Below are positions 2,663 to 6,317 of a stretch of DNA of 43,107 nt, piece after piece. The stretch covers positions 1 through 43,107 of IMG/VR virus record IMGVR_UViG_3300011113_000412, one strand, 5' to 3'. The notes beneath the pieces were generated by a model. The model saw only the letters and a list, made by a program, of their open reading frames with translations. It made no database searches and was not told the origin of the DNA. Source of the stretch: a virus. Positions within the stretch are counted from its first letter, which is position 1. Each line of letters begins with the position of its first letter. A program made the translations under genes and the position numbers.

Positions 2663-3685
2663 TCACCCCTTTTCTGCGATATATGCGGTCAATAATTTCG
2701 CGGCGACTTGCGGGACGATCGCATTGCCGAAGGCGCGCAGTCGTCCCACTCGGCCGGGAACCCCATGAGCCAGCGGGAATGTGCCGGGTTCAACTGGCCG
2801 GGCCTTGCCGTCTCGGCAGGGGAGCCAGTCGGCAGCGGACCAGAATGCACCGCTTGATTGGCCAGTTGCTCCCCCTTCGTCGTCCCGCTGCGTTCTTGAT
2901 AGCTCCGCGCGTTCGCGTGCCGATAGTCCCTGGTCGCTGGCGTCGCCCAGCCCGTCATCCGCGCGGCATCGAGGAGCGTCGTGCCGGGATGCATGGTCAC
3001 ATGCTCCTTCCTGGGGTTCTTCGCTGCGCGATCCATCCCATCGTCCGCGTAGCCGTGACGCCTCGACCCCGCTGCATCCATGCGTGTCGGCGTCGGCCAG
3101 CCCGCCCAATTTGCAGTTCGCGGGAGGGATGATTGTTCCCGTCCTGGCGCTTGCGATTGTCCTGCTTTCGCATCCTCCGCGTTTGGCGTCGGCCAGCCAG
3201 TACAATCTCTGTCGGATGTGCGGCGCACCGACGCCCGCAGCGCACAGATCTGCCGCCCCGACGGCGTAGCCCTCAGCTTCCAGGTCAGCGGATACACCGT
3301 CGAGCCACTCGAGTCCAAGCCGGCTCGCAACCTGTTCGCCAGCCACGACTGGAGGGCGGCACTCTCGGACGAGCCGATACATCTCGGGCCAGAGGTGTCT
3401 GGCGTCAGCGGTCCCTGCGCGGCGTCCTGCTGCGCTGAAGGGCTGACACGGGCAGGAGCCGGTCCAAAGAGGTCGGTCGTCCGGCCATCCTGCGATCCTG
3501 GCTGCAAGGCTCCAGCCTCCGATGCCGGCAAAGAGGTGGACCTGAGTGTATCCTCGGAGGTCGGTGGGTTGGACATCTGTGATGCTCCTCTCATCAACAT
3601 CGCCAGGAGCGATATGCCCAGCGGCGATCAGGTTACGCAGCCAGGCGGCCGCGAAAGGTTCGATTTCGTTGTAGTAAGCAGCCAT
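2663..3685 (-). CDS. DNA cytosine-5 methyltransferase
   Basis: 340 residues. It transfers a methyl group from SAM to cytosine C5 in DNA. Motifs in order: [10 protein letters not shown] (52-60, SAM binding); [11 protein letters not shown] with catalytic Cys80; VI, GEQV (116-119) in place of the common [17 protein letters not shown] (156-165); a long variable target-recognition stretch (about 170-290); and [15 protein letters not shown] near the C-terminus. An N-terminal extension ([17 protein letters not shown]) is characteristic of a phage subfamily. No restriction partner adjoins it, so it is probably an orphan methylase protecting phage DNA or altering regulation. TGATG coupling links it to the upstream gene. 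Confidence 0.93.
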
Positions 3686-4940: not shown

Positions 4941-5393
4941 CTACTCTCCGACCGGCCTGTCAAGCGGCTCGACCACAAGCCGGTAGCCCAAAGCGTTTGC
5001 GACCGCTTGCAAGCTCAGGAACGTAGCGTTCCCCTTGCGGCACCAATTCCGATAGCTGCCCGGATGCACGCCCGCCCGAAAGAAGATGTCCCTGATGTTC
5101 CCCGTCTTCTGGCTCTCAACCATGCAGAGCTTCAGGACGCGCGCGAGCGTCTTGTCGATCCTCGGGTCTGGCTCGGTCAAATTATGGGCGCCATCCTTTG
5201 TCTTCGACCAGGCACGAACATCAGCCTCGAGGACGCGGTACTGACGCTTCCCCCTGTGCTCGACCCATCGCGCGGAGACGCGGCCTGTTTTGGCCAGCCG
5301 GGCGATATGGCTGGGGCTTGTGTTGGCGATCCAGGCGGCGGTCTTTGTGTTGATCCAACCCTTGTCAGCGGACTGGTCGGAACGCATCGTCAT
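4941..5393 (-). CDS. Two-domain helix-turn-helix regulator
   Basis: 150 residues. An N-terminal excisionase/MerR-like winged HTH (WINTKTAAWIANTSPSHIAR, with RVSARWVEHRGKRQYRV as the wing; about 12-65) is joined by a linker to a second XRE-like helical domain (IRDIFFRAGVHPGSYRNWCR ... LQAVANALGYRLVVEP; about 97-145). Both halves look DNA-binding, so it probably controls early transcription or origin use. It overlaps the DnaA-like gene upstream by 29 bases, indicating coupled synthesis. A strong hairpin follows its stop. The exact operator is unknown. Confidence 0.75.
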   Translation of the reverse strand: MTMRSDQSADKGWINTKTAAWIANTSPSHIARLAKTGRVSARWVEHRGKRQYRVLEADVRAWSKTKDGAHNLTEPDPRIDKTLARVLKLCMVESQKTGNIRDIFFRAGVHPGSYRNWCRKGNATFLSLQAVANALGYRLVVEPLDRPVGE

Positions 5394-5688
5394 GCTCGAT
5401 CCCCCTTTTGATTTCGTGATGCATTTTCAGCAGCACCTTGTCCGCATTGACCATTGCGATCGAGTAGTTAACGACCGCGACGCTGCGGCCGAACATGGCC
5501 GCGATGCCCCTCTGGGTAGCGGTGCGGATCATATCGTAGGCCAGGGCGATGGCGACCGCTCGGACCCGCGCGATCTCGGTGGTTCGACGCCGCGACCGCA
5601 GATCGTTCGCGGTGACGCCAAACCGCTTTTCAATATCGGCGGCGATCACCCGCCAGGCCTTCTCCTCGGCCGACTGCACGTCATGCAT
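5365..5688 (-). CDS. Stand-alone DnaA domain IV-like DNA-binding protein
   Basis: 107 residues. The core IEKRFGVTANDLRSRRRTTE followed by IARVRAVAIALAYDM and IAAMFGRS matches the C-terminal HTH (domain IV) of bacterial DnaA, which binds DnaA boxes. There is no ATPase domain. The usual DHTTV-type signature after the FG.R segment is replaced by VAVVNYSI, so specificity is likely altered. It may recruit or block host replication initiation, or bind the phage origin. The start at 5688 (MHDVQSAEEK) overlaps the end of the upstream gene by eight bases; the overlap with the HTH regulator downstream suggests they act together. Confidence 0.8.
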   Translation of the reverse strand: MHDVQSAEEKAWRVIAADIEKRFGVTANDLRSRRRTTEIARVRAVAIALAYDMIRTATQRGIAAMFGRSVAVVNYSIAMVNADKVLLKMHHEIKRGIEHDDAFRPVR

Positions 5689-5908
5689 TGGCGGCTCCCT
5701 CGCTCTGCCGCGCAGCAATGACGCCCGCGAGCACGGACGCCAATTTCGCGGCGTTTCCCTCGGTGAGCATGAGCGTCAGATCATCAATTTCAATGACCAT
5801 TGCGTCAAGCGCAGCGGTTTTGTCCCCGGTCTCGAGCGGGTAGACGTACCGCGCGGCGATGCTGGTCGGGCTCGGGTACAGTAAATTGCAGGAATATCTG
5901 ATTATCAT
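5681..5908 (-). CDS. Hypothetical early protein expressed behind a ribozyme
   Basis: 75 residues (MIIRYSCNLLYPSPTSIA at the start; a helix LAGVIAARQSEGAANA at the end). Start 5908 is set by a strong AGGGAG site in the conserved leader GAGAAAGGGA, also seen before the genes at 6331 and 6909. Its leader RNA contains the hammerhead ribozyme at 5927-5979, so after cleavage this message would begin with a GC hairpin and a 5' hydroxyl. The biochemical role is unknown. Confidence 0.65.
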   Translation of the reverse strand: MIIRYSCNLLYPSPTSIAARYVYPLETGDKTAALDAMVIEIDDLTLMLTEGNAAKLASVLAGVIAARQSEGAANA

Positions 5909-5926
5909 AGAAAACTCCCTTTCTCT

Positions 5927-5979
5927 GGCCTCATCAGGCGCCGCATGACGGCGCGACCGGGGTCTCCCCGGTTTCGTCC
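5927..5979 (-). ncRNA. Type II hammerhead ribozyme
   Basis: Read on the minus strand from 5979: GGAC (stem II, 3' strand), GAAA (5975-5972), stem III ACCGGGG/CCCCGGT (seven perfect pairs, AGA loop), C17 at 5955 giving the canonical GUC cleavage triplet, stem I GCGCCG/CGGCGC (six perfect pairs, loop TCATG), CTGATGA (5937-5931), and GGCC (stem II, 5' strand). All universally conserved hammerhead core bases are present in the permuted order of a type II (open stem II) ribozyme. Stem II has three Watson-Crick pairs and one G-A mismatch. Cleavage is predicted between 5955 and 5954, separating the messages of the 5985-6317 and 5681-5908 genes. The ribozyme starts five bases after one stop codon and ends just before the next Shine-Dalgarno. 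Confidence 0.85.
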
Positions 5980-5984
5980 TATTG

Positions 5985-6317
5985 TCAGATCCTCTCAATG
6001 TCATGGAAAAGCGCGGGCCGACCGGCGCGCTGTTTGAACTGCTCGCGCGTCACCAGTGCGAGCGCAGCGCCATCGTCTTCGTCGCTGAGCCAGGACGAGA
6101 CCAACACCCGGTCCTTGTCCCAGGACCAGACGCCCGCATGCACGGGGATCGGTTCCCCGCCGTAGGTCGGGAGGTCGGAGAAGTCGAGCGCCTCCCAAGC
6201 CTCCGACGTGAGCAGCTTGTCGACCTCGAGGACGCGGGTCCAGAGGTCGGCGAGGTTATGCGCCTCCTCGATGTACTTCATCGCGGCGCGGGTGATGCAA
6301 TAAAGTGCTCCGTGCAT
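5985..6317 (-). CDS. Hypothetical early protein
   Basis: 110 residues, acidic, with several Trp (LADLWTRVLEVDKLLTSEAW; VWSWDKDRVLVSSWLSDED). No family was recognised. The ATG at 6317 follows a GGGGAGAA site. Its stop lies five bases before the hammerhead ribozyme; cleavage there would leave its message with a 3' terminal GC hairpin (stem III), which could protect it from exonucleases. Confidence 0.65.
   Translation of the reverse strand: MHGALYCITRAAMKYIEEAHNLADLWTRVLEVDKLLTSEAWEALDFSDLPTYGGEPIPVHAGVWSWDKDRVLVSSWLSDEDDGAALALVTREQFKQRAGRPALFHDIERI

Follow-up and report, generated by a model that had tools for sequence, protein, structure and literature searches.

A type II hammerhead ribozyme between two genes of a phage early operon, and the UNANG-loop subfamily to which it belongs

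The window analyzed here, the whole 43,107-nucleotide stretch of IMG/VR virus record IMGVR_UViG_3300011113_000412, carries on its minus strand an element that is almost certainly a type II hammerhead ribozyme. It sits between two codirectional genes of a leftward early operon and belongs to a subfamily with a UNANG pentaloop. Ribozyme junctions have a consistent address directly behind stop codons and a raised gene turnover, and the subfamily is large and largely missed by default Rfam searches. We think it likely that the element acts in cis, splitting the leftward early message at the border of a gene cassette and leaving hairpin-protected ends. The window copy itself is one modest, possibly weakened example, and the interest lies mainly in the wider pattern and in the cultured systems that share it. 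The question of why phages carry hammerheads dates back to 2011.

The window element and its subfamily

Read on the minus strand, the element follows the permuted type II order of stem II strand, GAAA, stem III hairpin, UH, stem I hairpin, CUGANGA, and stem II strand. Its core has CUGAUGA, GAA, and the A5972-U5956 pair, followed by C5955 as H17. The original prediction had described this arrangement correctly, including the coordinates, the GUC triplet, and the perfect stems I and III, and the spacing that it gave also holds, with the element lying 5 nt after the stop codon of the upstream gene and 7 nt before the next Shine-Dalgarno sequence. The features are as follows.

5926 to 5980, minus strand: type II hammerhead ribozyme in full, with flanking bases A11.5 (5980) and A10.5 (5926), from the sequence and covariance models R1 and RF02276
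5980, minus strand: A11.5, flanking stem II
5976 to 5979, minus strand: first strand of stem II, GGAC (11.4 to 11.1), with A5977 mismatched to G5929
5973 to 5975, minus strand: core G12, A13, and A14 (GAA), from the sequence and in agreement with model R1
5956 to 5972, minus strand: stem III hairpin ACCGGGG-AGA-CCCCGGU, from the sequence and fold, with strands at 5972-5966 and 5962-5956 around the AGA loop and seven pairs counting A15.1-U16.1
5955, minus strand: C17, with cleavage predicted between 5955 and 5954 from homology to the hammerhead core
5938 to 5954, minus strand: stem I hairpin GCGCCG-UCAUG-CGGCGC, with strands at 5954-5949 and 5943-5938, six pairs, and a conserved UNANG pentaloop at 5948-5944
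5931 to 5937, minus strand: core CUGAUGA, from the sequence and the RF02276 and R1 alignments
5927 to 5930, minus strand: second strand of stem II, GGCC (10.1 to 10.4)
5985 to 6317, minus strand: upstream gene from the open reading frame (ORF) list, 110 aa, no known family, stop TGA at 5987-5985; 87% identical in a close relative, with the same stop
5915 to 5922, minus strand: Shine-Dalgarno sequence AAAGGGAG of the downstream gene, retained in the relative, where this site has no ribozyme
5681 to 5908, minus strand: downstream gene from the ORF list, 75 aa, no known family, ATG at 5908-5906; 81% identical in the relative from the same start

Identification as a type II hammerhead is supported by both the sequence and covariance models. 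In a search of 201 bases, Rfam family RF02276 (Hammerhead_II) scored the window copy at 26.7 bits (E of 0.0011) and was the sole Rfam family matched at an E of ≤1. This score does not reach the curated gathering threshold of 37 bits, and the default Rfam scan of the whole window therefore reported nothing at that threshold. Model R1, which was built from 51 equal-length relatives with the window copy and its close relative left out, gave 57.6 bits (E of 3.8e-14, with a rough calibration), and the window copy was its only match at an E of ≤10 across the 43 kb. A type II descriptor found 84 matches in 490 kb of retrieved loci, which had been preselected for such motifs, and zero matches in reversed or shuffled versions of the same 490 kb; together with the R1 score, this shows that the motif is more than chance.

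The subfamily was collected with a pattern that fixed the core, GTC, a U-N-A-N-G pentaloop at the right spacing, the first pair of stem II, and a C-G pair beside A15.1-U16.1, leaving the other pairing free. At least 120 stretches in IMG/VR match it. Even though pairing was mostly unconstrained, all 156 matches in the retrieved DNA pair: stem I is paired at 6 of 6 positions in 154, stem III has at least four pairs in all 156, and stem II has four consecutive pairs in 149, so that a four-pair stem II is typical and not universal. Position 11.5, which lies just outside stem II and was left unconstrained by the pattern, is an invariant A (148 of 148 distinct members), and the base opposite is almost never able to pair with it. 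A 6-bp stem I with the UNANG loop, a 4-bp stem II, and A at 11.5 therefore describe the subfamily, and the window copy has the first and the last of these together with the loop.

A second scan left the loop free and instead constrained an additional pair in stem III and two bases of stem II. Among its 138 distinct sequences, the first loop position was U in 137, the third A in 113, and the fifth G in 120, and 11.5 was A in 137. Since the UNANG loop and the flanking A recur when the loop is unconstrained, they are natural features and not products of the pattern. The stems covary strongly. In the 51 equal-length members, 99.6% of cells are paired compared to 65.4% in shuffles, 270 cells are changed on both sides where 75 are expected, and the covariation score is 0.858 versus about 0.1 when the alignment is slid. 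A pseudoknot between loop I and the 3' tail showed no clear excess, with runs of at least four pairs in 27 of 148 members and 21.9 expected from shuffled tails, and the window loop UCAUG has no complementary run in the adjacent tail AGAGAAAG. Rfam reports 3 matches among 20 loci that hold more than 30 members, which makes the subfamily mostly invisible to default annotation. In the article texts on phage hammerheads that we covered, we found no description of the UNANG/A11.5 subfamily, of arrays of 8 to 19 copies, of the stop-codon address, or of the gene-turnover statistics.

Calling the window copy complete is accurate for the core bases and both closed stems but not for stem II, where GGAC and GGCC give G-C, a G-A mismatch, C-G, and C-G. 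The single mismatch had been noted in the original prediction and corresponds to G10.2-A11.2, a combination found in 1 of 148 distinct members, the window copy alone, whereas nearly all relatives are paired there. In a nearest-neighbor model, in which penalties and pair probabilities disregard tertiary contacts, the 10.1-11.1 pair has a probability of 0.008 (family median, 0.915), owing to competition for the core from an alternative hairpin, GCCU-GAUG-AGGC. Adopting the hammerhead fold costs 3.5 kcal/mol, where the family median is 1.2, and this penalty is the fourth worst of 146. Stem I (probability of 0.89) and stem III (above 0.99) are predicted to form regardless, while stem II is predicted to be absent from the minimum free energy fold. 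We take the window copy to be a real ribozyme by descent, for which activity is plausible but may be reduced or lost; a single base change separates its stem II from a normal four-pair stem.

Stop codons, relatives, and arrays

The two proteins flanking the window ribozyme matched no PHROG or Pfam family. The end of the 110-aa gene reads TGA CAA UAG, and the second in-frame stop, UAG at 5981-5979, overlaps A11.5 and G11.4. Within the subfamily, UAG at this offset occurs more often than any other arrangement. Among members with enough flanking sequence, 182 of 235 have the stop of an upstream same-strand ORF 2 to 12 nt before stem II, compared to 23 of 217 on the opposite strand, and that stop overlaps A11.5 in 75 of 235 versus 4 of 217. 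On the downstream side, ORFs with a Shine-Dalgarno sequence typically start 10 to 30 nt later. Elsewhere in the window, 5365-5718 of the minus strand encodes a small early protein with the C-terminal helix-turn-helix domain of DnaA (PF08299), the rest of DnaA being absent.

Only one close relative of the window was found (locus L002 of genome G001, about 90% identity), and searches with three neighboring proteins all retrieved the same single contig. At the site of the window ribozyme, this relative carries a pair of small genes (97 and 64 aa), and the whole ribozyme is absent, while the upstream stop and the downstream Shine-Dalgarno sequence are conserved around the site. A core lost with its hairpins kept, which the original prediction had named as evidence against it, was thus not seen in close relatives, as the entire element is missing. 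The relative carries a sister ribozyme of its own (L002 1245-1300; G001:C1:31475-31533) with a paired stem II and 63.1 bits with the family model. It lies between two small ORFs, and the window has one GP88-like gene at that slot. Each of the two ribozymes thus lies at a place where the gene content of window and relative differs.

In eight other related phages, the same conserved genes enclose a ribozyme that immediately follows small genes, which for the most part share no sequence relationship; most of these small genes begin with MTTN, and seven of the eight stop at offset -2. The gene slot in loci L140, L145, L157, L160, L176, L133, L097, and L068 combines an MTTN start in most cases and a mostly fixed UAG end inside the ribozyme strand with coding sequence that is mostly unrelated. 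Isolated type II hammerheads were also observed on metagenome-assembled contigs that are possibly prophage, one from Planctomycetota (L184, G027) and one from Magnetococcales (L056, about 3175-3227). With the CCGGGG stem III pattern, about 85,000 genomes yielded just four stretches of this kind.

BLAST of the window locus and of three multicopy or related loci against cultured phages gave no match. Unannotated type II arrays are present in cultured Streptomyces phages (loci L282 to L287), with 8 to 12 copies each in Janus (NC_054660.1, 41939-49152), Paedore (NC_054671.1), Haizum, Tefunt, SqueakyClean, and Puginator; Wentworth has six. Bcep781 gave a weak match only, and Coruscant, FP_Brigit, Phedro, and Eula were rejected as carriers, as their short BLAST matches contain no ribozyme. 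Among uncultivated viruses, IMGVR_UViG_3300033551_000003 has 19 type II hammerheads on one strand within 18 kb (42951-60649; L037, L042, and L055), mostly of a long-loop kind with a visible loop-to-tail complement.

The arrays of the Streptomyces phages occupy almost every sizeable gene gap of the leftward operon. In four distinct lineages (Janus, Haizum, Paedore, and Puginator), 38 annotated junctions have ribozymes, all co-oriented, and only seven gaps of at least 60 nt are without one. Gene neighbors are kept in 23 of 102 comparisons at ribozyme junctions versus 95 of 194 elsewhere (Fisher P of 1e-5, with comparisons that are not independent), a test confounded by gap size, since genes overlap at most of the junctions that lack a ribozyme. 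In 22 of the 23 cases with a retained gene pair, the ribozyme is retained as well. Cultured hosts of these phages include the laboratory host Streptomyces lividans (phage Paedore), and cultured phages with 8 to 12 copies make ribozyme function testable during infection.

A proposed role and its alternatives

In the mechanism that we favor, the RNA would fold as RNA polymerase passes and would cut itself after C5955. The upstream product would then end in the GC-rich stem III hairpin with a 2',3'-cyclic phosphate, and the downstream product would begin 46 nt ahead of the start codon, with a 5'-hydroxyl and the hairpin of stem I. This agrees with the two hairpin ends that the original prediction expected if the element cleaves, and it follows from geometry: a type II cut falls between two closed hairpins, whereas types I and III cap one side only. 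Bacterial mRNAs whose ends carry hairpins, a 5'-hydroxyl, and a cyclic phosphate should decay more slowly. With both new ends at a closed helix, exonucleases and 5'-end-dependent decay would be slowed, and the two genes would become separately controlled messages; we infer both this protection and a benefit to the phage. The element would mark the border of an exchangeable small-gene cassette, and early operons would be punctuated by ribozymes where gene content changes. As a speculation, translation could delay cutting, since a ribosome terminating at the stop codon would sit over the strand of stem II.

A broader version can be put forward only tentatively, and we think it more doubtful than the cleavage mechanism for the window. 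UNANG ribozymes may be the standing punctuation of cassette operons, with each exchangeable small gene ending, stop included, in a ribozyme strand, so that a shuffled operon would yield separately stable messages whatever genes are slotted in. The type II order would be favored here because it is the sole circular permutation of the three that caps both cut ends with closed hairpins.

The mismatched stem II, the hairpin competing for the core, the poor folding rank, and the absence of the element from the only close relative would also fit a ribozyme in decay with little activity left, either newly inserted or the scar of a cassette, that has already lost a stem II pair and in which only the hairpins, or nothing, are useful. 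We regard this as rather unlikely given that the core bases, both closed stems, the UNANG loop, A11.5, and A10.5 are all intact and one base would restore stem II, and natural hammerheads with a stem II of one or two pairs have been reported to be active (PMC3088659). It is less probable still that the ribozymes are recombination landmarks, repeated sequence kept as homology at gene borders for swapping small genes, with self-cleavage being incidental. In several related phages, one ribozyme family recurs between conserved genes and behind unrelated small genes; this recurrence, the higher neighbor turnover at ribozyme junctions, and the sister copies within a genome would all suit such a role. 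The stems covary freely, though, so it is not primary sequence similarity that is kept, while the catalytic core is; a role in homology alone would require neither CUGANGA and GAAA nor perfect pairing.

Two explanations without a ribozyme fare much worse. An intrinsic terminator, or a stable pair of hairpins resembling a hammerhead by chance, would account for two GC-rich hairpins between genes and is very improbable, as a U-run follows neither stem, no terminator was called at the ribozyme, and the family evidence, the R1 score, and the silence of the descriptor on shuffled and reversed controls contradict it. That the region is an N-terminal extension of the downstream gene is hardly credible. 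ORF 6004-5681 is open in frame, with no stop codons, but the relative keeps the Shine-Dalgarno sequence and the start of the 75-aa gene with different DNA before them, and RNA pairing is preserved across the family.

Comparison with known hammerheads

The original prediction knew of no description of hammerheads in this operon context, which does not hold, as phage hammerheads flanking variable genes were published in 2011 (PMC3088659); phage hammerheads are already known, and the window context is not new in kind. In that work, Perreault et al. found type II hammerheads to be common among bacteria, frequently as groups that flank one gene or a block of genes in prophages, and suggested the processing of long phage transcripts while leaving function open (PMC3088659). 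The phage link and the open functional question are repeated in later papers (PMC6155905; PMC10085705).

The UNANG subfamily shares with published type II hammerheads (RF02276; PMC3088659) the permuted order with an open stem II, the universal core, GUC, and a location at phage gene junctions with several copies per operon. It differs in its 6-bp stem I with a UNANG pentaloop and in the invariant A11.5. The published consensus also has a pseudoknot between loop I and the 3' tail, reported for the majority of type II hammerheads but not all (PMC3088659), and often a 2-bp stem II, whereas the UNANG subfamily has a 4-bp stem II and the pseudoknot is unsupported.

The HHphage of halophages HF1 and HF2 (Perreault et al. 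2011) likewise lies in a phage early region, there 13 nt before a start codon and with a mapped 5' end near the cleavage site. Unlike the window copy, it has a variant core that needs high magnesium, and it belongs to an unrelated phage. Hammerhead and twister ribozymes are enriched in proximity to one another and to Mu-like phage genes (PMC10085705), where the reason for the clustering was stated to be unknown. These too are clustered by phage genes, but the window phage is not shown to be Mu-like, and its ribozyme, unlike those clusters, lies in an early operon.

A further parallel is given by the clustered hammerheads that surround ardA in Agrobacterium and by those of Azorhizobium and Clostridium scindens (Perreault et al. 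2011), which also flank single small phage genes in one orientation. These were shown to cleave, and some clustered bacterial hammerheads do so both in vitro and in Escherichia coli (PMC3088659), whereas for the window copy such activity is plausible. Copies are few there, with a triple in Agrobacterium, compared to 8 to 19 per phage in the arrays found here and a single copy in the window.
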